Made by a program: the position numbers and the translations under genes. 25,360 nucleotides of DNA, taken from Kiloniellaceae bacterium (GTDB lineage Bacteria; Pseudomonadota; Alphaproteobacteria; Kiloniellales; Kiloniellaceae). The notes below the pieces were generated by a model that was not told where the DNA came from, made no database searches, and saw only the letters and a list, made by a program, of their open reading frames with translations. This document shows positions 1,359-25,360 of this stretch, piece after piece. The stretch is from positions 1-25,360 of the forward strand of contig JAJFGK010000079.1 in assembly GCA_021776195.1 (NCBI GenBank), in the 5' to 3' direction. The first letter of the stretch is position 1, and each line of letters opens with the position of its first letter.

Positions 1359-2140
1359 CCCTGGTCGGTCCCCTGCCCGCCCCAGCGCCGCGCCGCGACG
1401 CCGCCCCTCGGCTTGGCCGCGCGGGTAGTCATGGCGAGTGGCTTGGGGGCCGCTGAGTTGGCGGGGAGAGCGGCACTGCCGCTCTGATCCGTCTCGGGCA
1501 AGGCCGCCTGCTCAGGCTCGGACCCGTCTTCGGCCTTGGCAGGGGCATCTTGGTCCGCCGCTTCGCCCGCGGCCTCCTCGACATCCGACGGCTCCGCAGA
1601 TGGCTCACCGTCGGCCGGGCCGGGGGCGGCCACTTCATCGGCGGCCAGTTCATCGGCGGCCGGGTCGTCGGCGGCCAGTTCTTCAGCGGCCAGATCATCA
1701 TCGGGCGGGTCGTCGCGCAGATAGCCGCGCCCGACCTGATAGGCCGTCTTCATGCCCTCGATCACGGTCGCCGCGTCGGTGAAATCCTCGTCATAGTCGT
1801 TCAAGCCATCGAGATTGGCGAGCAGCGGGTTCGAGCGCCAGAGCCGCTTGAGGGCTTGGCGGCGCAGGGCCTCTGGAACCTTTTCCTGCAGAAAGACGGT
1901 AAAGTCGGAATCCCGGTCGAGGGTCTCGATGTCCGGCAGTTGGGCGACGACCTCCTCCTCGCTGAGCTCGGCATCCCCCTTCGCAGCATCGGCCCCCTTC
2001 GCAGCTTCGACCGCGTCCTCGGGAACGGGAGCCGTCACGGCAACGGTCTTGGCGCCCGGATCGTCGTCCTGCTTCAACCGCGACCAGCGGCCCAGGAAAC
2101 CTTCCTTCTCGGAGTCCAGTTCATCGACCCGCCGTGTCAT
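1355..2140 (-). CDS. DUF3306 domain protein
   Basis: A 261-residue protein. The N-terminal half matches the DUF3306 pattern: GFLGRWSRLKQ near residue 14, LPDIETLDRDSDFTVFLQEKVPEALRR (about 68-94), then ALKRLWRSNPLLANLDGLNDYDEDFTD (about 96-122). The second half is a disordered Ala/Glu/Asp-rich tail with repeats such as AADDPAADELAAD and a basic end. In many proteobacteria, DUF3306 and DUF3305 genes sit together beside formate dehydrogenase genes and a TorD-like chaperone. Here the DUF3305 partner is present, but no dehydrogenase is visible in the window. ATG start at 2140 with a GAGAGGG tract upstream. Molecular function is not established; a role in molybdo-enzyme maturation is inferred only from that genomic association. 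Confidence 0.85.
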   Translation of the reverse strand: MTRRVDELDSEKEGFLGRWSRLKQDDDPGAKTVAVTAPVPEDAVEAAKGADAAKGDAELSEEEVVAQLPDIETLDRDSDFTVFLQEKVPEALRRQALKRLWRSNPLLANLDGLNDYDEDFTDAATVIEGMKTAYQVGRGYLRDDPPDDDLAAEELAADDPAADELAADEVAAPGPADGEPSAEPSDVEEAAGEAADQDAPAKAEDGSEPEQAALPETDQSGSAALPANSAAPKPLAMTTRAAKPRGGVAARRWGGQGTDQG

Positions 2141-2189
2141 CCGCGTTGCGCCCTCTCACCCTTCATCGAGCCAATCACCGTCGCCCCCC

Positions 2190-2837
2190 TCACCCGGAGC
2201 CCTGGCCGCGCGGCGGTCGCCCGGCGCCGGGAGGGGGCCCGTCGAAGCCTTCCTTGCGCGGGTCGTGCGGCTTGCGCTTGCGCTTCTTGAAGGGCACGTC
2301 GACATGATGCTGGTGGCAAAAGGCCTCGATAAAGCCCACCAGTTCGGCGGGCAAAGCCACGGCATCGACGATCTCCTCGCCGGAATCGAGATAATCCTGG
2401 GCCTCGTAGGGGCAGGCCGTGACCAGGAACGGCAGAAAGTCATGGGGCACATCGGGATCTTCGTTCTGGCGCAGCACCACGAAGAGCCGCGGCGGCGTTT
2501 GTGACAGATTGACCTTGTAGCCCTCGGTTTCCTTGCGAAACAATTCTAGCGGGAGAGTCCCGGCGTGGAACAACTGGCGTTCCTCGCCGGCCTCCAGAAC
2601 CGGCCAGTCGTCTTCCGGCGCCTGGGCGGGGGCGCCGGGGATCACGGCGACGGCGCGCCAGGCGTAATCCTGCCAGGGGTTGTCGATCTTGCGCCGCTCG
2701 ACCACGACGCCGACCGAAACACGCTCCTGCTTCGCAAAAGCGCCCTCCTGGTCCACCATCCCCGCGTCGGCCCTGATTTCGGCGGCCGTTATTTCGTCGC
2801 TGTCCATTCGTCCATCCCGATCACCTTGTGTCTTCAT
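2190..2837 (-). CDS. DUF3305 domain protein
   Basis: A 215-residue protein with the DUF3305 signature: VSVGVVVERRKIDNPWQDYAW followed by AVAVIPGAP (about residues 40-70), a FHAGTLPLELFRKETEGYKVNLSQTPPRLFVVLR block, and a C-terminal HHVDVPFKKRKRKPHDPRKEGF basic stretch followed by a Pro/Gly tail. It lies 49 bases upstream of the DUF3306 gene on the same strand, the usual pairing. Start ATG at 2837 is preceded by GAGGCAAG; an in-frame ATG ten codons later (MDSDEITA) is an alternative. In other genomes the pair accompanies formate dehydrogenase and 4Fe-4S genes, none of which is visible here. Biochemical role unknown. Confidence 0.85.
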   Translation of the reverse strand: MKTQGDRDGRMDSDEITAAEIRADAGMVDQEGAFAKQERVSVGVVVERRKIDNPWQDYAWRAVAVIPGAPAQAPEDDWPVLEAGEERQLFHAGTLPLELFRKETEGYKVNLSQTPPRLFVVLRQNEDPDVPHDFLPFLVTACPYEAQDYLDSGEEIVDAVALPAELVGFIEAFCHQHHVDVPFKKRKRKPHDPRKEGFDGPPPGAGRPPRGQGSG

Positions 2838-3030: not shown

Positions 3031-3450
3031 ATGGTGACGATGACTTTGAAGCGGGCGACTTTGAAACAGGTGACAATGGCTGCCACCCTGACATTGGCCA
3101 TTGTTGGCACGGGTAGCGGCTCGGCGCTGGCGGAAGGCGACGCCGAGGCCGGCGCCAAGGTCTTCCGCAAGTGTAAGGCCTGTCACGTGGTCGATGCCCC
3201 CAAACACCGGGTCGGGCCTTCGCTGCAAGGCCTCATCGGTCGGACCGCCGGGACCGCCGAGGGCTACAAGTACTCCAAGGCCATGATCGCCTATGGCGAA
3301 TCCGGCATCGTGTGGGACGCGGCGGCGCTCGACACCTATCTGGAAGCCCCCCGCAAGATCGTCGCCGGCACCAAGATGGCCTTTCCCGGCCTCAAAAAAC
3401 CCGAGGATCGCGAGAACGTCATCGCCTATCTTATGCAGTCTTCCCAATAG
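3031..3450 (+). CDS. Class I cytochrome c (c2/c550-like), periplasmic
   Basis: A 139-residue precursor with a Sec-type signal peptide (basic start, hydrophobic MAATLTLAIVG, likely cleavage after ALA at residue 34), leaving a mature electron carrier of about 105 residues. The heme c site is CKACH at 48-52. GPSLQGLIGRTAGTAEGYKYS is the usual region after it, and Met116 in GTKMAFPGL is the expected axial ligand, followed by the C-terminal helix ENVIAYLMQ. These are hallmarks of mono-heme class I cytochromes that shuttle electrons to terminal oxidases or other periplasmic enzymes. GGGAG upstream of ATG 3031 supports the start; ATGs at 3040 and 3076 are in frame. The next gene also encodes an exported heme protein. 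Confidence 0.93.
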   Translation: MVTMTLKRATLKQVTMAATLTLAIVGTGSGSALAEGDAEAGAKVFRKCKACHVVDAPKHRVGPSLQGLIGRTAGTAEGYKYSKAMIAYGESGIVWDAAALDTYLEAPRKIVAGTKMAFPGLKKPEDRENVIAYLMQSSQ

Positions 3451-3688: not shown

Positions 3689-4975
3689 ATGATATTGAGA
3701 AACCGCTTGTTGATGACCTGCGCCATCGTGCCAGCGGCCCTCGTGGCCGGGGGCGCACTGAGCGGCGTGGTGGTCACCGGGCAATTGGGCATGCAGTCTG
3801 CTTATGCGACCTGTAACCCCTGTGCGGCGGTCAACCCCTGCAATCCTTGCGCGGCAGCCTGTAACCCCTGTGCCGCGGCTTGCAATCCCTGTAACCCTTG
3901 CGCGGCGGCTTGTAATCCGTGCAATCCTTGTGCGGCGGCCTGCAACCCTTGCAATCCCTGCGCGGCGGCCTGTAACCCCTGCAATCCTTGTGCGGCGGCT
4001 TGCAATCCCTGTAACCCGTGCAATCCTTGCGCCGGTGCGTGCAATCCGTGCAATCCCTGTGCGGCGGCCTGTGTCGTGCCGCGCCTTCAAGCGGCCGCGG
4101 CGTGCAACCCCTGTGCGGCGGCCTGTAACCCCTGCAATCCCTGCGCGGCCGCTTGCAATCCCTGTAATCCCTGCGCGGCGGCCTGTAACCCCTGTAATCC
4201 CTGCGCGGCGGCCTGCAACCCCTGCAATCCCTGTGCGGCGGCCTGTAACCCCTGCAATCCCTGCGCGGCGGCCTGTAACCCCTGCAATCCCTGTGCAGCC
4301 GCTTGCAATCCCTGTAATCCCTGTGCGGCGGCCTGTAACCCCTGCAATCCCTGTGCAGCCGCTTGCAATCCCTGTAATCCCTGTGCAGCGGCCTGTAACC
4401 CCTGCAATCCCTGCGCGGCTTGCAATCCTTGCAATCCCTGCGGCGGGTGCAATCCCTGCGGCGGCGGCGCTGCACCGGAGCTGACGGCTGGCGAACTGGC
4501 CGCGGTTTACGACTGCCTCGAGCCGACCATGACGGCGGCCTACGGCAAGTCCGACAATGCCCGCGCGCTGGAGTTCCGCACCTATCGGATCTACAGCAAG
4601 CACGCCTATGTCTCCGACACCCACGGCGGCCGCTTCGTGATGAACTATGGCAACGAGACCGCCAAGGCCTACGGCGCCTACGAGAACGCGGGGACCTTCC
4701 CGGCGGGATCGGCCCTGGCCAAGCCGAGTTTCGCGGTCAAGGGCAACGGCCGCGCGACCCTGGGGCCCTTGTTCCTCATGGAGAAGATGGCCGCCGGCTT
4801 CAATGCCGGCAGCGACGATTGGCGCTACACCATGATCATGCCGAACGGTTCGATCTTCGGGACGACCAACGGCAAGAACTCCAAGAAGGTCGAGTTCTGT
4901 ATCGGGTGCCACCAATCGGTCACGCCCGACCAGGATAACGTCATGCTGCTGCCCGAAGAACTCCGGGTGAAGTAG
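3689..4975 (+). CDS. Asn-Pro-Cys repeat protein with C-terminal cytochrome P460-like heme domain
   Basis: A 428-residue exported protein in three parts. Residues 1-40 form a signal peptide with likely cleavage at AYA|T. Residues 42-257 are a low-complexity array of [10 protein letters not shown] units, with about 41 NPC triplets and roughly 60 cysteines, interrupted once by VVPRLQ near residues 129-134. Residues 264-428 resemble cytochrome P460: [49 protein letters not shown] and a heme c motif CIGCH at 404-408 close to the end. P460-family proteins bind an unusual heme and act on hydroxylamine or nitric oxide; the substrate here is unknown. GGGAGGA precedes the ATG at 3689. The array could be a metal-binding, disulfide-linked or spacer segment; this is inference. 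A hairpin terminator follows the gene. Confidence 0.85.
3812..4459 (+). repeat. In-frame tandem repeat, about 30-base unit ([10 protein letters not shown])
   Basis: The coding array of the preceding gene. The basic unit is about 30 bases (10 residues), with near-identical copies in register every 30 or 60 bases from 4103 to about 4420. Codon variation alternates mainly TGC/TGT, AAC/AAT and GCG/GCA/GCC. The first part (3812-4072) is less regular and includes a single NPC unit and an NPCNPCNPC triple. An 18-base interruption lies at 4073-4090. All variation preserves frame, which suggests the protein sequence is under selection. Confidence 0.95.
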
Positions 4976-4986
4976 CTACACACATA

Positions 4987-5023
4987 ACCCGGCGTGGCGG
5001 GATGCCGCTGCGCCGGGTTCTTT
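4987..5023 (+). terminator. Rho-independent terminator after the P460-like gene
   Basis: AACCCGGCG (4987-4995 region) pairs with CGCCGGGTT (5011-5019), a 9-base stem followed by CTTTCT. It begins 11 bases after the stop of the P460-like gene and should limit transcription into the Sel1-repeat gene, which starts 23 bases further on. Confidence 0.7.
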
Positions 5024-5045: not shown

Positions 5046-5534
5046 ATGGTCCCGTGCGGGTTCACCCTGCTGGTCGTGCTGTCGCTGGCCTTGGGTCCTG
5101 GCCTGACCGCCAATTCCGCCCTGGCCATTGACCCCGAAGAAATCTTCATCGAAGGCCTGGAGGCCTATGACGGCGGCGACCTGACCGAAGCCGCCGCCGC
5201 TTTTCGTCAGGCGGCCGACGCCGGCCATCGCGAAGCGCTGGTCGTCCTCGCCGGTCTGACCCTGGACGGCCGCGGAGTCAGACAAGACCCGGCCCAGGCC
5301 GCGCGGCTCTATCGCCGCGCCGCCGAGCAGGGGGACGCCCTCGCCCAACTCAATCTCGGCGACCTTTACAGCCGCGGCCTGGGTGTGCCGCGCGATCGCC
5401 GGGAAGCGCACTACTGGCTGTCGCGTGCCGCCGCCCAGGGCCGTCGATGGCCCCTGGCGCGGCTGCGCCAGATCGAGGCGGCGATGACGCCGGAAGAACT
5501 GGCCCAGGCCCGGCTGCGCCTCGCCAACGAGTGA
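5046..5534 (+). CDS. Exported Sel1-like repeat (TPR-related) protein
   Basis: A 162-residue protein. Residues 1-27 look like a signal peptide (LLVVLSLALGPGLTANSALA). The rest holds a TPR-like helix pair (GLEAYDGGDLTEAAAAFRQAADAGHREALVVLAGL) and then Sel1 repeats with the typical pattern: LDGRGVRQDPAQAARLYRRAAEQGDALAQLNLGDLYSRGLGVPRDRREAHYWLSRAAAQG. Sel1 repeats are alpha-alpha superhelical scaffolds for protein-protein contact. It probably acts in the periplasm or at the envelope, but the partner is unknown. ATG at 5046 has GGAGG about 15 bases upstream (spacing long). Upstream is a terminator, so it may have its own promoter or depend on readthrough; downstream it converges on the methyltransferase gene with a 28-base gap. 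Confidence 0.85.
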   Translation: MVPCGFTLLVVLSLALGPGLTANSALAIDPEEIFIEGLEAYDGGDLTEAAAAFRQAADAGHREALVVLAGLTLDGRGVRQDPAQAARLYRRAAEQGDALAQLNLGDLYSRGLGVPRDRREAHYWLSRAAAQGRRWPLARLRQIEAAMTPEELAQARLRLANE

Positions 5535-9410: not shown

Positions 9411-10373
9411 CTACTCCTGACGCCGTTCTTCCCAGATGTAGCCGAGGAAATTCATCAGCAGTTGGGCGGCGAGGATGGAGGTGACATCGGCGTGGTCGTA
9501 GGGCGGCGCGACCTCGACCAGGTCGACGCCGACGACGGGCCCCATCTTGACCAGGCCCTGGAGGATCTCGAGCACCTCGTAGTAGAGAAAGCCGCCGTGG
9601 CTCGGGGTGCCGGTGCCCGGCGCGATCGAGGGATCGAAGCCGTCGATGTCGATGGTGACGTAGTAGCGCAGGCCCTTGGGGATTTCCGCCAGGGTGCCCG
9701 CCGCCCCCATGCGCCGCACGTCGCGCACCGAAAAGATCTTCGAGCCGGCCTCCCGCGCCGCGTCGTAGTCCTCGCGGTTCGAGGAGGAGACATTGCGGAT
9801 ACCCAGTTGGGTCATGCCGGTGACCCAGCCCTTTTCCGAGGAACGGCGCAGAGGGTTGCCGTGGCCATGGCGCACGCCGTGGCGCTCGTCCACGAAGTCC
9901 AGGTGCGCGTCGAAGTGGACGATGTGTAGCGGCGGCTCGTCGGCATAGGCCGCCATGACCGGGTCGTGCACCGAATGATCGCCGCCCAGCACCACCGGCG
10001 TGGCGCCGGCCGCCAGGATCTTGCGCACGGCGAACTCGGTGTTGGCGCGGCTCTTGGCCATGTCCGTATGCACGATGTCGGCATCGCCGCAGTCGACGAT
10101 CCGCACCTCCTTGGACGGCAGGTAGGTCACGTCGTCCTCGAAGTCGTAGGCACCGGCGTGGCCGAAGGAAAAGAGCGTCGAGGCCTCGCGGATGCCGCGC
10201 GGCCCGAAGCGCGCGCCCGGTCGATACTGCGTGCCCATGTCGTTGGGCACCCCGAGGATGGCGAAATCGGCCGCGAGCTGGTCCCAGTCGGTACAAACTG
10301 GCGCCTTGGCAAAGGTCGCGTGCCCGACAAAGGGCAGGTTCAGCCGCCCCGCCTCATAACCGTGATCCGCCAT
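9411..10373 (-). CDS. Agmatinase-family ureohydrolase
   Basis: A 320-residue protein from ATG 10373 (MADHGYEAGRLN), chosen for the strong GAGGGGG site 6 bases upstream; the frame is open to 10556 but those residues look non-coding. The binuclear manganese motifs of the arginase/agmatinase superfamily are complete: VVLGGDHSVHDP, HFDAHLDF and DIDGFDPS. RFGPRGIRE and GTGTPSHGGFLYYEV complete the fold. The family hydrolyses guanidino compounds to urea plus an amine. In many agmatinases the specificity loop is GTGTPEPGG; here it is GTGTPSHGG, so guanidinobutyrate, guanidinopropionate or another guanidino acid is as likely as agmatine. It is followed head-on by the LLM oxidoreductase gene, and a second family member lies at 19848. 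Confidence 0.9.
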   Translation of the reverse strand: MADHGYEAGRLNLPFVGHATFAKAPVCTDWDQLAADFAILGVPNDMGTQYRPGARFGPRGIREASTLFSFGHAGAYDFEDDVTYLPSKEVRIVDCGDADIVHTDMAKSRANTEFAVRKILAAGATPVVLGGDHSVHDPVMAAYADEPPLHIVHFDAHLDFVDERHGVRHGHGNPLRRSSEKGWVTGMTQLGIRNVSSSNREDYDAAREAGSKIFSVRDVRRMGAAGTLAEIPKGLRYYVTIDIDGFDPSIAPGTGTPSHGGFLYYEVLEILQGLVKMGPVVGVDLVEVAPPYDHADVTSILAAQLLMNFLGYIWEERRQE

Positions 10374-10462
10374 AGTAGCCCCCTCGTGGTCCTCAAACTC
10401 CCAGTCAGTCTCCATAGCGCAGCGGCCAGTCGACCGCAAAGCAATCTCATTGGCGCGGGTCT

Positions 10463-11194
10463 CTAGGAACAGGTTCGCTGGCGCTCGGAATCGTAGAGGC
10501 GGGCCAGGGCGCGGCCCGGCAGGTGCAGATGGTAGAGGCCGTGCAGCAGGAGCCATTGGGCGAAGATCGCAATCGGGTGGCGCCCGGCGAAACGGCGCGA
10601 GGAGGTCACCACCGGCGGGTCGTCGATACAGACCGTGCCGCCGTGGCGCTCCAGGCGGCGGCTGAAGTCATAGTCCTCCATCAGGGCCAGGGGGTGAATG
10701 CCGCCCAGTTCGTGGTACAGGGCACGCCGCACGAAAATCACCGAATCGCCGTAGTAGAGCCCCTGGCGGCGGAACCAGGCGTAAAAGCCGGTCAGCCAGC
10801 GGGCAAAGCCATCCGCGCCGTCGAACAGCACCCGAAAGTTCCCGCCGGTGACGGTCGGATCGGCCAATGCGGCCCGCAGCGCCGCCGCGCCCCGGACCGG
10901 GAACAGGGTGTCGGCGTGAAGAAAGACCAGAAGATCGCCCCGCGCCGCCTCGGCGCCGGCCTTCAACTGGGCCCCCCGGCCGCGCGGTGCGGCGATCAGG
11001 CGGGCGCCGGCCCGTCTGGCATTGCCGGGTGTGTCGTCGTCGCTGCCGCCATCGACAACGATAATCTCGGCGCCGAAGTCAGCAGCCCGGACCCTGGCGA
11101 TGCAGGCGCCGATCCGCGGCGCCTCGTTCAGCGCGGCGATGACAAAGGAGATCCGCAGCGGCGCGGCCTCAGGCGATGAAGTACTGGCGTTCAT
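10463..11194 (-). CDS. Family 2 glycosyltransferase, TIGR04283-like
   Basis: A 243-residue protein from ATG 11194 (MNASTSSPEAAPLRIS). Features are ISFVIAALNEAPRIGACIARV (GT-A nucleotide-sugar binding), AEIIVVDGGSDDDTPGNARRAGARLI (the DGGSxDxT signature), APRGRGAQLKAG, GDLLVFLHADTLFP (the HADT metal-binding motif), FRRQGLYYGDSVIFVRR and LALMEDYDFSRRLERHG. This pattern fits the TIGR04283 glycosyltransferases, some of which are annotated in arsenosugar synthesis. The usual TIGR04282 partner and an arsenic methyltransferase are not adjacent, so that role is not supported here. The first 26 bases overlap the di-iron gene, suggesting coupling. The C-terminus has the expected WLLLHGLYHLHLPG hydrophobic helix. 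Confidence 0.87.
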   Translation of the reverse strand: MNASTSSPEAAPLRISFVIAALNEAPRIGACIARVRAADFGAEIIVVDGGSDDDTPGNARRAGARLIAAPRGRGAQLKAGAEAARGDLLVFLHADTLFPVRGAAALRAALADPTVTGGNFRVLFDGADGFARWLTGFYAWFRRQGLYYGDSVIFVRRALYHELGGIHPLALMEDYDFSRRLERHGGTVCIDDPPVVTSSRRFAGRHPIAIFAQWLLLHGLYHLHLPGRALARLYDSERQRTCS

Positions 11195-14102: not shown

Positions 14103-14147
14103 GAAATCTCTACCCGAATGCATGCGAAGCGATTCAGGGAGAGAGTC

Positions 14148-16622
14148 ATGGCCCATGGATTTATGGAGGAATGGGGTCTCAGCGAACCCTCGCCCTCGGG
14201 CGCGGGCCAGGACCTGGAGGCCTTCAGGGTCAGCTTTGGCGACGAGATGCAGGCCGTGGCCAAGGCCATGGAGTTCCTCGCCGGCAACGCCAGCGCGGCC
14301 GAACAAGGGCCCTATCTGCGCGAAGAGACCGCCACCTTCGAGGCCTACCAGACGATCCTCAGGAACGCCGAAAAGGCCGGTGGCACGCTTGACCAGGACG
14401 CCTGCGAAGAGGTCCTGACTTCCGCCCGGCGGCTTCGGGCGGACCTGGAGGAGTTGCAAGACACATTGGGCGACGCCTACTCCTCCTGGCAGGCTTCGCG
14501 TTTCAGTTTGGAGGCCGCCGGCGACCGTATCGACGAACTCGACAAGGCCGGGCGCAAAGAGGCCGCGGGCCTGCTGCAAAGCCTGCAACAGGTCGAAGAA
14601 GAGGCCGCCGCGAGACATTGGACGGCGGCCCGGGACGGTCTGGCCGCCCTGCTCCAAGAGCTCGACCCGATCTACCGCGCTTATCGCGACGAGGTCGGCG
14701 AAGATGACGAAGAGGGAGCGGCGACATCGGAAGCGTCGAGCGGCGATGCGGTGGCTTCGGGTGGCGGCGGTGGCGGCGGCGGTGGGGGCGGCGGTGGCGG
14801 AGCGAGTCCCCAGAAATCGCCGGCGCCGCAAAGCCCCGCACCCACGGACCAGCAGGCGGCCGGTGCCGGTGTCACGGATGAGCAGCTTCAGCAGAGCAAC
14901 GAGCCGGCCTTCCAGACTGCCGCGGCCGGCCAGATGGACATGGAAGAAGATGAGCTGCTGCTGCAGTACGACGACGATCCTGACGAAGGCGAGTACGTCG
15001 ACCCGCCCATGATGCCGCCTCCCGAGCCGAGCACCCCATCGCCGCCCGCCGAACCGGAAAAGGGCGGTGCTGGCGGTGGCGGCCCCGATGACGGTGGCCC
15101 CGATGACGGTGGCCCCGACGATGGTGGCCCCGACGATGGTGGCAAGAGCGCCTGGGATGTCATGGAGGAGGCCTACGACGCGGTCGCCGAGGTGGTCGAA
15201 GATGTTATGGAGGCGATCGACGATTTCGTCGATGACAACAAGGACCTGCCGGCGCAACAGGGCGACACCCATGAATTCGCCGAGGACGAGGAAATGGTCA
15301 TGACCTCGGAAGGCTCGCTAAGCGGCGGGCCAGGCGGCGGTGGGACCGGCGCGGCGGCGGTCGCGGCGGCTGCCGATGAGGCCCAGCAGGCGGCCGGTAC
15401 GGTCCAAGCGACACTTGACGAAGTCATGAACTATCAAACTTTGGCCCTGCAAGCGCAGTCGTCGATTTTGACCGCTCTCACGACCCTGCAGACGACCCTC
15501 GCCACCAAAAGCAGCGATGCCATGCACGCGGCGGAGCGAACTGCCGGCCAAATCGTCGACCAGGCCGGCACGCCCGGCGTGCCAAAACAACAGGTGATGC
15601 CGCAAATATCCGACCTGGCTGTCACAAACAGTGCGGCGCTATCCGACCTGAAGGCGCTGGTCGGCAAATCTATGGAGGCTATCGATGGCCAATTGGGTCA
15701 GTTGTCTGGCTTCGCCAGCGCGTCCCAGGCCCGTGCCAGCACCACCGACGCTTTCGTTGCCATGGCACAGATGGCAGCGCTCCAGGCCAACAACCTGGCC
15801 GCGGAGGCCGAGAATGACGAGGACGATGATGCAATTCAGAAGCACTTGGCACGGGCGCAGGGCGCCGTGTCTCAGGCCCAGACCGCTCACGGCCTGTCCC
15901 AATCCACGGCCCAGACCACCAACGCACTTTTGGCGACCACTAAACTGACCATCTCGGCGGGACGGACAGAGGCTAACAGCAGCATCGCCTCCACCGAGCA
16001 GGTCCAGGCGACGATCCTGGCGCAATGCCAGAGCCAGTCCCAGGCAGCGCTCGCCGCACGCGGCGCGGAGGCCAAGCGGGCAACGTCCGAAGCCGCCGCG
16101 ACCGCCGAGAGCGACGCCGAGGCCGCCGAAGCGCAAACCGCCCAAGCCGTGCAGGAAGCCGTCAAGTCAGCAGAGGCCGCCGTCGCCAAGGCCGCCAAGG
16201 CGGCGGAAAAGATGATCGACGAGCAGTTCGGCGACGACCCCGACCTGGCCAAGCGCGTGAAGCAGGCGGTCAAGGATGGCGCGGGCGGGGCCCTCGACCT
16301 GATGAAGGGCGTCGCCGAGACGGCTCGGGAAGGCGCCGCCCAGACGGCCGACGCGGTGAAAGACACGGCCAATGCCGCCCGTCAGACCGTGACGCAAGGG
16401 GTCGAGGCCGGCACCGAGGCCGTCGAGACGGTCGCCACGCGGGTCAAGCAGACTGTCACCGATCAGGTTGGCGAAACTGTCGAGACCGTCAAGGAGGTGG
16501 TCGAAAAGTCCGCCGAAATGGTCGAAAAGGTCGCGGAAGATGCCGTGGAACTGGCCAAGCGGGCCGGCGAAGCCGAAAGCGCCGAGGAGGTCGAGGAAGA
16601 GGAAGAAGAGCTCCAGAGATAG
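14148..16622 (+). CDS. Large low-complexity helical protein with poly-Gly and PDDGG repeats
   Basis: I do not recognise a named family. The protein is 824 residues from ATG 14148, chosen for the GGGAGAGAG site just before it; ATG 14118 is weaker. Residues about 1-190 are helical and include one segment, LLQSLQQVEEEAAARHWTAA and onward (about 141-182), resembling the module of the giant protein at 21930. Residues 205-218 are 14 glycines; 220-330 are Pro/Asp/Gly-rich with four PDDGG units. About 335-390 are acidic. From about 400 on there are long Ala/Gln/Thr-rich helices, then LEA-like amphipathic repeats (VKDTANAARQTVTQGVEAGT) and the acidic tail EEVEEEEEELQR. There is no signal peptide or membrane segment. 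Possible roles are a secreted or structural scaffold protein (inference only). Confidence 0.75.
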   Translation: MAHGFMEEWGLSEPSPSGAGQDLEAFRVSFGDEMQAVAKAMEFLAGNASAAEQGPYLREETATFEAYQTILRNAEKAGGTLDQDACEEVLTSARRLRADLEELQDTLGDAYSSWQASRFSLEAAGDRIDELDKAGRKEAAGLLQSLQQVEEEAAARHWTAARDGLAALLQELDPIYRAYRDEVGEDDEEGAATSEASSGDAVASGGGGGGGGGGGGGGASPQKSPAPQSPAPTDQQAAGAGVTDEQLQQSNEPAFQTAAAGQMDMEEDELLLQYDDDPDEGEYVDPPMMPPPEPSTPSPPAEPEKGGAGGGGPDDGGPDDGGPDDGGPDDGGKSAWDVMEEAYDAVAEVVEDVMEAIDDFVDDNKDLPAQQGDTHEFAEDEEMVMTSEGSLSGGPGGGGTGAAAVAAAADEAQQAAGTVQATLDEVMNYQTLALQAQSSILTALTTLQTTLATKSSDAMHAAERTAGQIVDQAGTPGVPKQQVMPQISDLAVTNSAALSDLKALVGKSMEAIDGQLGQLSGFASASQARASTTDAFVAMAQMAALQANNLAAEAENDEDDDAIQKHLARAQGAVSQAQTAHGLSQSTAQTTNALLATTKLTISAGRTEANSSIASTEQVQATILAQCQSQSQAALAARGAEAKRATSEAAATAESDAEAAEAQTAQAVQEAVKSAEAAVAKAAKAAEKMIDEQFGDDPDLAKRVKQAVKDGAGGALDLMKGVAETAREGAAQTADAVKDTANAARQTVTQGVEAGTEAVETVATRVKQTVTDQVGETVETVKEVVEKSAEMVEKVAEDAVELAKRAGEAESAEEVEEEEEELQR
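15081..15140 (+). repeat. Four 15-base tandem repeats encoding GPDDG
   Basis: Four in-frame 15-base units; the first two (GGCCCCGATGACGGT) are identical and the last two (GGCCCCGACGATGGT) are identical, so the array probably grew by slippage or duplication. It lies in the flexible linker of the 824-residue protein. Confidence 0.9.
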
Positions 16623-19847: not shown

Positions 19848-20804
19848 ATGACAGACCGACTGACCGAAGCACCGGGGGGACCGCCGCGAACATTTCTCGA
19901 CTTTCCCCTGGTGGCGGATCTCGACGGCCTCGAGGCCGATATCGCCATCCTGGGCATTCCCTTCGGCATGCCCTACGAGGCAGCGGCGATGGCGAACGAC
20001 CAGAGCCGCGCGCCGGACGCGATCCGTCAGGCCCCGGACGACACCCACTACACGAAGAATCATTTCGACTGGGACCTGGGCGGCCCGCTGCTCGACGGGC
20101 GCGACATCGCCGTGGTCGATTGCGGCAACGTGACCGCCGACATGTCCGATCACAAGGAGCACTATCGCCGTGCCGAACAGGCCGCGCGGAAGATCCTGCA
20201 GGCCGGCGCCACCCTCGTCACCCTGGGCGGCGACCACGGCATTCCAATCCCGGTGATGCGGGCGCTGGAGTGCAAAGGCGAACCGATCACCCTGGTCCAC
20301 GTCGATGCCCATCTCGACTGGCGCCACGAGGTCAACGGCGAAACCGAAGGCTATTCCAGTCCGATCCGCCGCGCATCCGAGATGGCCTGGTTCGACAAGA
20401 TCGTCCAGATTGGCATCCGCGGCATCGGCAGCGCCCGGACCGGCGAGGTCGAGGATGCCCGGGCCTATGGCGCCGACATCGTCACCGCCTACGAAATGCA
20501 CGATATCGGCATGGAGGCCGTACTGGCCCGGATCCCCGACGGCGGCCCCTACTACCTGACGATCGACGCGGATGGTCTGGACCCGACGATCATGCCAGCG
20601 GTCATGGCACAGACCCCGGGCGGCCTGGACTGGATGCAAACCCGCAAGCTCATCCATGGTCTGGTCAAAAAGGGGCGGGTGCTGGGCATGGATCTGGTCG
20701 AGATCGCGCCGACCTACGACGTCGGCAAGACGACGATGGTCCACGCCGAACGCCTGATCTGCAACTTCATCGGCGCCGCGGTGCGCGCCGGCTACTACGA
20801 CTAG
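19848..20804 (+). CDS. Agmatinase-family ureohydrolase, divergent paralogue
   Basis: A 318-residue protein with a strong GGGAGGA site before ATG 19848. Binuclear manganese motifs are kept: VTLGGDHGIPIP, HVDAHLDWR and TIDADGLDPTIMP. The specificity loop reads MPAVMAQTPGGLDW rather than the usual APGTGTPEPGGL, and the protein is clearly diverged from the paralogue at 9411. It probably hydrolyses a guanidino compound or related amidine to urea plus an amine, with the substrate unknown. It overlaps the Ldh-family dehydrogenase gene tail to tail by four bases in CTAG, each strand using TAG. This arrangement and the dehydrogenase partner suggest a shared catabolic theme, but the convergent orientation means no operon. 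Confidence 0.88.
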   Translation: MTDRLTEAPGGPPRTFLDFPLVADLDGLEADIAILGIPFGMPYEAAAMANDQSRAPDAIRQAPDDTHYTKNHFDWDLGGPLLDGRDIAVVDCGNVTADMSDHKEHYRRAEQAARKILQAGATLVTLGGDHGIPIPVMRALECKGEPITLVHVDAHLDWRHEVNGETEGYSSPIRRASEMAWFDKIVQIGIRGIGSARTGEVEDARAYGADIVTAYEMHDIGMEAVLARIPDGGPYYLTIDADGLDPTIMPAVMAQTPGGLDWMQTRKLIHGLVKKGRVLGMDLVEIAPTYDVGKTTMVHAERLICNFIGAAVRAGYYD

Positions 20805-21929: not shown

Positions 21930-24900
21930 TCAAGCGGTGGCCGCGACATCTTCCTTGGAAAGAAATGATTCCAGGGTCGCCAAGGAACCATCCAGTTGCG
22001 TCAAGTAGGACAGCGCCTCCCTGTACTGATGCTTGGCGGCCAGATCCTTCATCGCCTTGTAACCGCTGGTGATGCTCTTCAAGAGCCCCTGGGCCTTGGG
22101 ATCGCTGGGCTTGGCTTTCGCGACCGCTTGGAGACGCGGCTTGATCGCGCCGTGCCCGGTCTTGTAGTCCGCCTCTTGCTTCTGCTCGGCCGCCAACTCG
22201 GTCGCGTAACCGTCGACCATGGCCGTGGCGCGGTTCATCTTATCGAGCGCCTCTTCGAAGTTCTTGGCGCCGGCGGACGCCTTCATCTCGCCGATCTTGG
22301 ATTTGATCGAGTCCTCGACCGGTTTCAGGACCGGGTAGTGCGAGGGATAGTCCAGTCCGCCCAACTTGGTGTCGAGCGCGGCGGCCCCGGTGGTGTACTT
22401 CACCTCGAGTTCCTCATCCTGCTCCAACAGTTCGCTGTAGGCCGCCAGGGAAGTATCGATGATGTCCGCCAGGCGCAGAGCCTGGTCGAAATCGTCCTCA
22501 CCGGCCGCCGCCTCCATGGTCGTCTTGTTGCGCCCGATTGACGCTATGATTCCCGCGGCCATCTCGCCTTCCAGAGGCGGTTCGGTTGTCTTCAGACCCT
22601 CGGAAATCGTGGCCAGACGCCCCTCATAGGTCTGCCGCTCTTCCTCGACGTCGGCCTTCATGGTCTTGAAGCCCTCGAATGTCGCCTCCAAATCCGTCAA
22701 GGCGGCAAGCCCAGTCTCGAAGGCTCGGTTCTGCTCGGCCTCCTGAACCGTGTCGCGGCGCGGCCCCAGGCGTTCTTGGATCGCCACTACGCCAATGTTC
22801 TTTTCGGCGGACTGTATCGCGGCCGCTACCGGGTCCTTTAGGGCGCCCCAGCGCGTGGTAAAATCCTCTTCTTGTTGCTCCAAGCGCTCCAGCAGCGCTT
22901 CATAGGCGCCAACGTCGGCGGCCAGCACGACGACTTGACCGAGCGCCGTCTCGAAGTCCTCGCCCGCCGCGCTCGCCTCCATCGTGGCCCGATCCGATGC
23001 AATGGCTTGCTGGGGCTCCTCGGCCTCGGGGTAGGCTGCGGAGTCCGCCGCAGCGTTGAGCCGCGACACCAAGGGGCCATATCGCTTTTTGTACTCCTCC
23101 TCGGCGTTCTCCATCGCGTTTTGGAGGGTCAGATAGTCAGCGACCGCCGGTTCCAGCCAGTCGAGCGCGACTATGGCCGCCGCATAGTCCTGACTTCCGG
23201 CGGCCGACTGCATCGCCTCCTGCTTGCCGAAGATACGCGAGCGGGGCTCTTTCAGGGCCATGTGCGAGACCGGTTTGGCCACCTCGGCCAGTCCATCGGT
23301 GATGCCGCCTGAGCGAGTCTCATACTCGGTCATCAGCTTTTCATGTTCCTCAAGGAGCTTGTTGTACCCGGACAGGGAAGTCTCGATGACGTCCATGCCC
23401 TGCAGGGCGTCATCAAAGTTGTCCTCTGCGGCGTGGCCTTCCATGGTGGCCTTGTTGCGTCCGATCGATTCAACCAGCGACTTTGCCAACTCGCCGGGTA
23501 TCGTGGGCTCGGTCTTGGCCAGTGACTCCTCCAGTACGGCAAGGCGCGTGGTGTAGGTCTCGCGCTCGGCCTCAACATCGTCCTTATGGGTCTGATAGCC
23601 GACCAGCGCCGCCTCCTGCTCGCGGGCCTTTTCCAGCGCCGTATCGAAATCCTTCGCACCAGCGGCTGCCAGCATGGCGGTCTGGCGCTTGGTGAGATTG
23701 GCCTGGATCGTCGACAGGGCATAGTTTTTGTCGGGCGATTTCGTCGCCTCGGCCACCGGTCCCTCCAGCTTGCCGGCGAGCTGGTTGTACTCTTCTTCTT
23801 TCTGGTCTTCCTTTTCCTTGAAGGTGGCCAGGGTCGCGAGGCCATTGACCAGTTGGGTGATCGTGCCGAGGGCCTGGGCGAAATCCCGGCTGGCCGCCTC
23901 GCCTTCCATGATCCCGATAGCATCTTGCAAGCTCTTGTAGTAGCTCTTCGCCGACTCGTCGTTGGGCAGATCCTTGCCGGCTTCCACGACCTTCTGCTTG
24001 ATATCCGGGGCCTTGGCGAGGTAGTCGGCCTCCTGCTTTTGATAGACCGGCAGCTCCTTGGCATGGCCCTCGAGCATGGCGCTGGCCCGGGTCATGGCGT
24101 CCAGAGCGGTGGCGTAGTCGCCGCCCGCCGCTGCGGTTTCGGCCTCGCCCTTGCGCTTGTCGATCGCCTCCTGCCCCTCGTTCAGCATGGGGTAGTCGTG
24201 GGGGTAGGCGATCGCCGCGCACTTGGCCTCGAAGGCCTTGAGCGATTCCTCGTAGTCCGTCTTGGCGGCCTCCTGCTCGTCGACCTCGGTCTTCAGTTCC
24301 TCGGCCTGTTGGCCGGCTTCGTCCAGCTTCGCCTGGCCCTGGTCGAAATCGCCGGCCGCGCCCTTGGTGCTGTCCACCGCGGCCTTGTCATCCTGAAGGG
24401 TCTCCGGAACGTCGGCCTGAATGGCTTCCATTTCACCTTCGACCTGTTGCTGGCTTTCCTCGAATTGGGCCTTCTTGGCTTTGTGATCATCCACCTTTTT
24501 CTTGAGGGTCGCATGAGCAGCCTTCATCGAGTCGAAAAGACTGAGTGCCAGGGTGTAGTTCCCTGCCTGCTCCGCGCCCATGATCTGCTCCAGGACGGCG
24601 TTGAACGGCACCATCTCGCTTTCCAGCTCTGGCGGAACATTTTGGGTCGTCGGGGTCATTTCATTGAGCAGCGTGCCCCACTCGGCTTCGAAGGTCGTCT
24701 TGTCCGCGCGGTGCTGTTCCAGCTTCGCCTCGAAGGCCTGTAGCTCGCTCTCGGCCTGGCCGAGGAGGTTCACGCCGGCCCCGAAGTCCATGCTCTGAGC
24801 CGCCTGGTCCGCCTGACCCAGGAGGCTGTCGACCTTCTGATATTCGGGCTCGAGGTGTGCCGGCAGATCGGCCGAGGCCGCCGTGGCCCGCGGCAGCACC

Positions 24901-25360
24901 GCATCGAGCTTTTCCTTGTAGGCCTGGTGCCGCGCCACCAGCTCGACGAGTTTCTGGTGCTCCTCCTTCATCTTGCCGAAGAGGCTCAAGGCCAGTCCGA
25001 AATCCTCGGCCTGCTCGGCATCCATGATCTGTTCCAGCACCGCGTTGAAGGGCTCCATGGCCGCGGCGCATTCCGGCGGCATCGCGCTGGTCGTGGGCGT
25101 CATTTCATTCAGCAGCGGTCCCCACTCGGCTTCGAAGGTCGTCTTGTCCGCGCGGTGCTGTTCCAGCTTCGCCTCGAAGGCCTGTAGCTCGCTCTCGGCC
25201 TGGCCGAGGAGGTTCACGCCGGCCCCGAAGTCCATGGTCTGAGCCGCCTGGTCCGCCTGACCCAGGAGGCTGTCGACCTTCTGATATTCGGGCTCGAGGT
25301 GTGCCGGCAGATCGGCCGAGGCCGCCGTGGCCCGCGGCAGCACCGCATCGAGCTTTTCCT
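21930..25360 (-). CDS. Giant helical-repeat protein, 5' part beyond the window
   Basis: An open reading frame of about 1,140 codons in the window, running off the right edge with no start seen; stop TGA at 21930-21932. The product is built of about 15 modules of roughly 75 residues. Each ends in a helix pair with the core A-x(4,6)-[DNR][FY]-x2-[AG]-x3-L, for example MDFGAGVNLL, EDFGLALSLF, GDYATALDAM, RDFAQALGTI, DNFDDALQGM, EDFETALGQV, KNFEEALDKM and HQYREALSYL. Higher-order copies exist: the module pair with YPHDYPML resembles the pair with YPSHYPVL near the C-terminus, and SIGRNKATMEGH matches SIGRNKTTMEAA. The composition is acidic, Glu/Ala/Lys-rich and lacks Cys runs. No catalytic motif, signal or membrane segment is visible. 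A filament, scaffold or spacer role is inferred; I do not recognise the family. Confidence 0.8.
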   Translation of the reverse strand, partial: EKLDAVLPRATAASADLPAHLEPEYQKVDSLLGQADQAAQTMDFGAGVNLLGQAESELQAFEAKLEQHRADKTTFEAEWGPLLNEMTPTTSAMPPECAAAMEPFNAVLEQIMDAEQAEDFGLALSLFGKMKEEHQKLVELVARHQAYKEKLDAVLPRATAASADLPAHLEPEYQKVDSLLGQADQAAQSMDFGAGVNLLGQAESELQAFEAKLEQHRADKTTFEAEWGTLLNEMTPTTQNVPPELESEMVPFNAVLEQIMGAEQAGNYTLALSLFDSMKAAHATLKKKVDDHKAKKAQFEESQQQVEGEMEAIQADVPETLQDDKAAVDSTKGAAGDFDQGQAKLDEAGQQAEELKTEVDEQEAAKTDYEESLKAFEAKCAAIAYPHDYPMLNEGQEAIDKRKGEAETAAAGGDYATALDAMTRASAMLEGHAKELPVYQKQEADYLAKAPDIKQKVVEAGKDLPNDESAKSYYKSLQDAIGIMEGEAASRDFAQALGTITQLVNGLATLATFKEKEDQKEEEYNQLAGKLEGPVAEATKSPDKNYALSTIQANLTKRQTAMLAAAGAKDFDTALEKAREQEAALVGYQTHKDDVEAERETYTTRLAVLEESLAKTEPTIPGELAKSLVESIGRNKATMEGHAAEDNFDDALQGMDVIETSLSGYNKLLEEHEKLMTEYETRSGGITDGLAEVAKPVSHMALKEPRSRIFGKQEAMQSAAGSQDYAAAIVALDWLEPAVADYLTLQNAMENAEEEYKKRYGPLVSRLNAAADSAAYPEAEEPQQAIASDRATMEASAAGEDFETALGQVVVLAADVGAYEALLERLEQQEEDFTTRWGALKDPVAAAIQSAEKNIGVVAIQERLGPRRDTVQEAEQNRAFETGLAALTDLEATFEGFKTMKADVEEERQTYEGRLATISEGLKTTEPPLEGEMAAGIIASIGRNKTTMEAAAGEDDFDQALRLADIIDTSLAAYSELLEQDEELEVKYTTGAAALDTKLGGLDYPSHYPVLKPVEDSIKSKIGEMKASAGAKNFEEALDKMNRATAMVDGYATELAAEQKQEADYKTGHGAIKPRLQAVAKAKPSDPKAQGLLKSITSGYKAMKDLAAKHQYREALSYLTQLDGSLATLESFLSKEDVAATA
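24657..25360 (-). repeat. Near-identical 444-base tandem duplication inside the giant gene
   Basis: Bases 24672-24916 and 25116-25360 match almost perfectly at an offset of 444 bases (148 codons, two modules); I see one substitution (CTC versus GTC in the Gln-Ser/Thr-Met-Asp segment) in about 240 bases. The flanking part of each unit (24917-25100 versus the preceding module) is diverged. The match continues to the window edge, so further copies may lie beyond it. Confidence 0.92.

Follow-up and report, generated by a model that had tools for sequence, protein, structure and literature searches.

We identified, in a 25,360-nucleotide stretch of DNA (the window), a gene from a marine-type alphaproteobacterium whose product joins a dense cysteine array to a P460-type heme c domain. 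The Cys-array proteins to which it belongs form a widespread and apparently undescribed family. The protein is probably exported to the periplasm, judging by eye from its signal-like start. We propose that it serves as an exported carrier whose many dithiols take up a thiophilic ligand, most likely Cu(I) or another soft metal, and that this carrier is coupled to an electron-exchanging P460 heme and embedded in a larger Cys-array system. We assign this reading a probability of roughly 0.38. A literature search for the union of array and P460 domain, for stand-alone NPC arrays and for a link to the DUF6969 family returned no description. The gene boundaries and the neighboring cytochrome c gene given in the preliminary description of this DNA are both right (Table 1).

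Table 1 Features at and around the Cys-array P460 gene in the window.
Feature	Position	Strand	Details	Basis
DUF3306 and DUF3305 gene pair	1355-2140 and 2190-2837	-		PF11748, PF11749
Class I cytochrome c (c550-like)	3031..3450	+	upstream; 139 aa, CKACH	PF00034 E=3e-9
Cys-array P460 gene	3689..4975	+	428 aa	
Signal-like N-terminus, residues 1-40	3689..3808	+	basic start, hydrophobic stretch, AYA before TCNPC	by eye
Cys array, residues 42-257	3812..4459	+	63 Cys in 10-residue units	
10-residue spacer within the array, residues 129-138	4073..4102	+		sequence
P460-type heme c domain, residues 263-428	4475..4972	+		PF16694, predicted model, Foldseek
Cys276 codon	4514..4516	+	nearly restricted to array-bearing relatives	
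Lys345 codon	4721..4723	+	at the position of the P460 heme-crosslinking lysine in alignments	
CIGCH heme c attachment motif, residues 404-408	4898..4912	+		sequence
Inverted repeat AACCCGGCG...CGCCGGGTT, then T-rich tail	4986..5019	+	terminator-like	by eye
Sel1-repeat protein, signal-like start	5046..5534	+	downstream; 162 aa	PF08238 E=3.4e-19

Eight distinct genes of the window, lying between 360 and 7076, were profiled with Pfam. The upstream cytochrome c scored 97.9 bits against NF043008, under the 240-bit cut-off of that model. The inverted repeat behind the gene is absent from the output of a terminator scan, and its loop exceeds the length that the scan allows. Elsewhere in the window, two long ORFs are of low complexity and rich in repeats (14118-16622 (+), 834 aa, and 21930-25343 (-), 1137 aa), and two others look by eye like paralogous ureohydrolases of the agmatinase/arginase type (9411-10556 (-) and 19848-20804 (+)).

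The array comprises 216 residues, including 63 Cys, 61 Ala, 42 Pro and 41 Asn, in agreement with the repeat of about this length and some 60 cysteines described earlier. The whole protein has 67 cysteines: Cys11 in the signal-like region, the 63 of the array, Cys276, and Cys404 and Cys407 of the heme motif. Tandem Repeats Finder reported a 30-base unit in 20.2 copies at 3858-4459, with 77% matches. Comparing the 14 exact 10-residue units in pairs gave 0 differences at first, 0 at second and 382 at third codon positions. Confinement of the changes to third codon positions indicates purifying selection on the protein rather than a repeat maintained at the DNA level, and on this codon evidence the array frame is selected as protein. 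The preliminary description had allowed that the frame might not be translated, and the third-position variation speaks against this. The repeat is of low complexity, and many database relatives begin inside or after the array, as though gene callers had truncated them; still, an untranslated or artefactual DNA repeat is extremely improbable, given this pattern of variation and an array that stays in frame with the domain in 119 divergent relatives. The spacer within the array has a counterpart matching [VI]P[RG]L in 46 of 80 relative frames. At the N-terminus, the motif L[LMIC][SATG][STGA][TSA] occurred within the first 50 residues of 73 of the 119 fused relatives, compared with 4% in shuffled sequences; the window protein (LLMTC) does not fit it.

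The C-terminal domain matched PF16694 with E=3.5e-7 (31.1 bits) in the whole protein and 6e-8 (33.6 bits) as an isolated domain, above the cut-off of 27, whereas no NCBIfam model matched the protein at E≤0.1. The domain model was built on 45 sequences (43 from 80 relative loci, the solo P460 of L015 and the window protein), and the AlphaFold model of the P460 domain had a mean pLDDT of 93.2. In a Foldseek search of the PDB, ranks 1-9 were all P460 or cytochrome c'-beta structures, ranks 1-7 had E≤0.001, and the best match was 6hiu (E=8.9e-6, TM 0.56/0.64). The domain is thus predicted to adopt the P460/cytochrome c'-beta fold. The P460 assignment of the preliminary description is borne out by the profile, with which the fold and the conserved lysine agree. 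Sequence identity to three canonical-type relatives (L116-L118) was 17-18%.

We aligned the window protein with 119 relatives, a set of 120 chosen for having CxxCH, so that C404, C407 and H408 are present in 120/120 by selection. Cys276, Lys345, Phe362 and Lys366 were also invariant. In sequence alignments, Lys345 coincides with the lysine found in canonical-type P460s. In the PDB alignments, 6amg has K at the equivalent position and 6w6n has L, and the latter is described as a Lys106Leu/Ala131Glu variant (PMC11928373), which makes Lys345 a candidate for the heme-crosslinking lysine. Among 116 distinct P460-domain proteins, the position was K in 115 and R in one. Hydroxylamine-oxidising P460s carry a distal carboxylate, according to the same review (PMC11928373). 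In the window protein this residue appears to be replaced by Phe362, which hhalign placed at the carboxylate position in a weak alignment (probability 72%, three-sequence template). As the carboxylate is probably missing, classical P460 enzymology should not be assumed. With a P460 lysine and what looks like a non-polar pocket, the domain tentatively resembles the "halfway house", a term used in the abstract of the review (PMC11928373).

Cys276 was present in 78 of 84 array-bearing but only 2 of 32 array-less P460 proteins, counting as an array at least 6 Cys upstream of the domain in an open frame and accepting Cys276 within one alignment column (116 distinct domain proteins in the loci). The frames of the two array-less proteins with Cys276 (L041 and L061) are both cut by a contig end. 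This distribution suggests that Cys276 largely comes with the array, and it bears on whether the domain might bind or convert NO or NH2OH, with the array serving as a structural tail or anchor. The P460 fold and the lysine at the crosslink position are compatible with such a role, as P460 proteins oxidise NH2OH and c'-beta proteins have been proposed as gas binders, according to the review (PMC11928373). We nevertheless consider it improbable. The distal carboxylate position aligns, if weakly, with Phe362, and FNR-like boxes were not enriched upstream of the genes (5/62 with ≤2 mismatches, compared with a shuffled mean of 4.7). Moreover, since Cys276 goes with the array and arrays also stand alone, the array is probably more than a tail.

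We analyzed the distribution of the family in proteins and genomes. A domain-scored protein search, which admitted only proteins of about 235-749 aa and was therefore biased towards fused forms, returned 223 fused-length relatives at E≤0.001. Of the 120 listed among these 223, 119 carried Cys arrays; the odd one, P0003, has its P460 domain first and a Sel1 region after it. The preliminary description called the architecture unusual. The fusion of array and P460 domain is real, but it is not an isolated case, being typical of a large family. On genome contigs, 249 stretches encode a relative, of which 80 were kept for analysis. These came from Kiloniellaceae, Pelagibius, Sneathiella, Rhodospirillales, Hyphomicrobiales and other Alphaproteobacteria, with a few assigned only to "Proteobacteria", and fused genes occurred in Pelagibius litoralis DSM 21314 and in named Sneathiella strains. 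At least three NPC were found in 71 of the 80 frames. Of the other nine, five have no array (L062, L068, L072, L079 and L080), L061 is truncated by the contig end, L038 and L059 are frame-broken, and L078 has an array of CGAC/CGGC. In L038 and L059, the array is out of frame with the P460 domain, which is what a disrupted gene or a sequencing error would produce. Additional solo P460 genes were met in the loci. A DNA pattern for CNPCNPC matched 35 of 385 alphaproteobacterial genomes, while the reversed control gave 0 matches; phylum-wide, it matched 7 of 398 genomes and the control pattern matched 1. Some pattern matches came without an array: L086 (genome G165) has no array ORF, and L171 and L172 are single hits.

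Next, we considered the array as a module in its own right, using 180 array sequences from overlapping sets of proteins and loci. The array held a median of 30 Cys per sequence (range 8-89), and the commonest Cys-Cys spacing was 2, accounting for 59% of the intervals. NP, GA and SP were the commonest two-residue inserts, and thioredoxin-like CGPC was also present, with a GP insert occurring 61 times. In L078, L180 and L187, P460-linked arrays consist of CGAC/CGGC instead of CNPC, with the Cys density kept. Outside locus L173, His and Met made up 0.2% and 0.4% of array residues, respectively, and aromatic residues were almost absent. Counting array cysteines together with Cys276, the number was odd in 94 sequences and even in 86, and this lack of preference argues against one fixed, fully paired set of disulfides.

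Arrays also occur without the P460 domain. The loci contained 29 such array ORFs, a number that includes repeats of one place and the frame-broken fused genes of L038 and L059, and a 93-aa stand-alone exported-type array protein had 486 database relatives, of which 120 were listed. In L162 (5215-6165 (+)), a short N-terminal array is accompanied by a second array segment that interrupts the P460 domain, with the Lys345 region on one side of the insertion and the MEKM region on the other. In L173, at 1762-2370 (-) and 2357-2722 (-), a SoxA/TsdA-type cytochrome domain carries a fused NPC array, with a stand-alone array beside it. The fusion matched PF21342 (E=3.3e-14) and scored 48.5 bits against TIGR04484, under the 110-bit cut-off. 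The stand-alone array of L173 also holds Met and His, residues often carried by copper-binding proteins, and a multiheme cytochrome gene adjoins it.

The L173 fusion raises an alternative in which the array would work as a SoxY with many arms: its thiols would hold persulfides or thiosulfonates, to be oxidised or passed on by the heme domain. P0277 likewise joins, by eye, a similar-looking stretch to a C-terminal array, and the arrays of L085, L165 and L166 have genes for YeeE/YedE-type sulfur transporters (PF04143) nearby, with tblastn extending such neighborhoods to 10 loci, several from the same genomes. The transporter matches are, however, under the NCBIfam cut-offs, and the annotated neighbors of the P460-fused gene (window proteins and 10 cluster representatives) included no sox gene. 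We know of no sulfur chemistry for P460 domains. A sulfur carrier of this kind is a possibility that we regard as unlikely.

A further alternative is a redox capacitor or disulfide relay, in which the CxxC sites would switch between dithiol and disulfide and so hold electrons that the heme and cytochrome c could use. CxxC is the dominant cysteine pair and includes some CGPC. Near the stand-alone arrays of L083 and L170 and, by tblastn, of L084 and L164, there are genes for a VTT membrane protein and a pyridine-nucleotide disulfide reductase. Against this, cysteine parity is random, such a reductase lies beside P460-fused genes only in L038 and L054 (by tblastn), and the window protein matches no thiol oxidoreductase domain in Pfam; we hold this alternative to be distinctly unlikely. 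Separately, we noted that the reductase of L083, L084, L164 and L170 (and partly L082) is of a MerA-like FAD type, under the MerA cut-off, and that a sensor histidine kinase is also encoded nearby.

We then surveyed the gene neighbors in 81 stretches, namely the window and the 80 loci, many of which are cut by contig ends. Named clusters were Sel1 (34 of 81), DUF6969 (24), cytochrome c (23), FGE-like (18), an Rrf2/SUF regulator (16) and solo P460 (15); annotation covered 10 cluster representatives. The recurrent neighbors seen in the window itself were cytochrome c and Sel1. DUF6969 was found in 90 of 385 alphaproteobacterial genomes, comprising 32 of the 35 genomes with the CNPCNPC pattern and 58 of the 350 without it (odds ratio 54, p=2e-19, uncorrected for kinship). 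It lay within 6 kb of an array in 22 of the 29 genomes compared, with G112, G308 and G384 set aside. We also read 8-11 kb at 20 DUF6969 loci from the 58 genomes free of the strict pattern and found a Cys-array ORF, with or without P460, in 10 of them, one of which (L192) is weak, with only two NPC.

DUF6969 (for example, the gene L054:6689-7426 (+)) contains conserved HYP, YHxH and ExGHFH motifs, and these His motifs suggest that it might be a metalloenzyme. A confident predicted structure of DUF6969 (pLDDT 91.0) had no convincing fold match in the PDB. As no signal was seen in DUF6969, it is probably cytosolic. Among the FGE-like neighbors, a signal-like start was seen in the four inspected and GCGVC in at least half of 42 sequences, while two proteins that were scanned reached no NCBIfam cut-off. 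Known members of the FGE superfamily act on thiols. The MNIO family (PF05114), which supplies the bufferin enzyme and served here as a control, was present in 11 of 32 array genomes; it was not within 6 kb of the array in the 9 comparable genomes (G308 and G384 set aside) and was unmatched among the eight profiled window genes.

These associations could reflect a RiPP-like maturation, in which DUF6969, the FGE-like protein or both would modify the array cysteines to give a chalkophore-like product or a redox-active polymer. The genomic co-occurrence and proximity of DUF6969 and arrays, its His motifs in a protein without a convincing fold match, and the shared GCGVC of the FGE-like sequences are consistent with this idea, with the proviso that G165 has no array ORF in L086. 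It is weakened by the 10 of 20 DUF6969 loci in which no array lay within the 8-11 kb read, by the 3 of 35 pattern genomes without a DUF6969 match, and by the fact that metal binding by DUF6969 is suggested by its His motifs only. Overall, we judge such maturation doubtful. A wider proposal draws the observations together as a new exported thiol-polymer system, in which DUF6969 and the FGE-like protein would modify or load the array cysteines to form a metal or sulfur store wired to the respiratory chain through P460- and SoxA-type hemes and cytochrome c; this, too, we regard as rather unlikely.

In the metal-carrier mechanism that we favor, dozens of flexible CxxC sites, formed by CNPC pairs and short Ala-rich linkers, would bind many copies of the ligand, and binding capacity would scale with repeat number. 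Cu(I) or another soft metal would be the most likely ligand, and reduced sulfur the leading alternative. The P460-type c-heme would exchange electrons with the array or its ligand and hand electrons to the neighboring class I cytochrome c, while a larger alphaproteobacterial system would add stand-alone exported arrays, DUF6969 and the FGE-like protein. The ligand, the electron flow, the cellular location and the role of DUF6969 and the FGE-like protein are what we infer here. A large and variable number of cysteines without parity, variable linkers and the CxxC spacing fit a capacity-type carrier better than a fixed fold. Arrays joined to two heme c families, the tie between Cys276 and the array, and the cytochrome c neighbor suggest that electrons are exchanged among heme, cytochrome c and the array or its ligand.

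We ranked a soft metal first because bufferins, which are exported, MNIO-modified Cys peptides, chelate excess copper (PMC12452194), because EGKCG repeat models have been compared with copper storage proteins (PMC12452194), and because of the Met and His in L173. Sulfur was ranked second because of the SoxA fusion and the YeeE/YedE neighbors, and redox storage third. Several observations count against the metal carrier. Arrays outside L173 have almost no His or Met, linker lengths are too variable for one defined metal site, and no known metal-resistance or metal-transport gene was found among the annotated neighbor clusters (10 representatives). In addition, the periplasmic thiols may simply be oxidised. 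With regard to the wider system, the closest relatives (L001-L015) have neither DUF6969 nor an FGE-like gene within the flanks examined; in Pelagibius litoralis (L007, genome G001), DUF6969 is on another contig. The case for cytochrome c as a partner is weakened by the fact that just 23 of the 81 stretches, of which many are truncated at contig ends, have such a neighbor.

These findings add to the P460/c'-beta superfamily a branch that combines a heme with tens of thiols, which are probably exported. The branch is tied to the unstudied DUF6969 family, whose genomic partnership with the arrays is now a testable hypothesis. Should the arrays turn out to be metal or sulfur stores with a connection to respiration, they would represent a new type of extracytoplasmic store in Alphaproteobacteria. 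These questions can be tested in Pelagibius litoralis DSM 21314 and in the named Sneathiella strains, where fused genes are present.

Finally, we compared the window protein with known systems. It shares the fold, CxxCH and the lysine at the crosslink position with cytochrome P460 from N. europaea and Nitrosomonas sp. AL212, but adds the N-terminal Cys array and Cys276 and probably has Phe in place of the distal carboxylate. With cytochrome c'-beta it shares the fold (Foldseek matches 7ead and 7s5o) and probably a non-polar distal site. Cytochrome c'-beta replaces the P460 lysine by Phe or Met, as the review describes (PMC11928373), whereas the window protein keeps the lysine and has an array. 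Like metallothioneins, the array is rich in Cys and almost free of aromatic residues, but the window protein differs in its signal-like start, regular CNPC units and fusion to a heme domain, and Pfam gave no metallothionein match, PF16694 being the only family at E≤0.1. The SoxA/TsdA and SoxY proteins are connected to the arrays through one relative, the L173 fusion. The window protein itself has the P460 fold, without a SoxA/TsdA or SoxYZ carrier domain in Pfam (P460 only) or a sox gene among its annotated neighbors. The Buf_EGKCG/oxazolin precursors are described as having a signal peptide, variable Cys repeats with up to 58 Cys, and domain fusions (PMC12452194). The array proteins resemble them in their signal-like start, variable Cys repeats and domain fusions, yet they are linked to DUF6969 and FGE-like proteins, are fused to heme c domains and have no MNIO within 6 kb where genomes could be compared; no EGKCG occurs in the translated window protein. 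The P460 fold and exported Cys-repeat proteins are each of a known kind; in the literature searched we found neither their combination nor stand-alone NPC arrays or a link to DUF6969.
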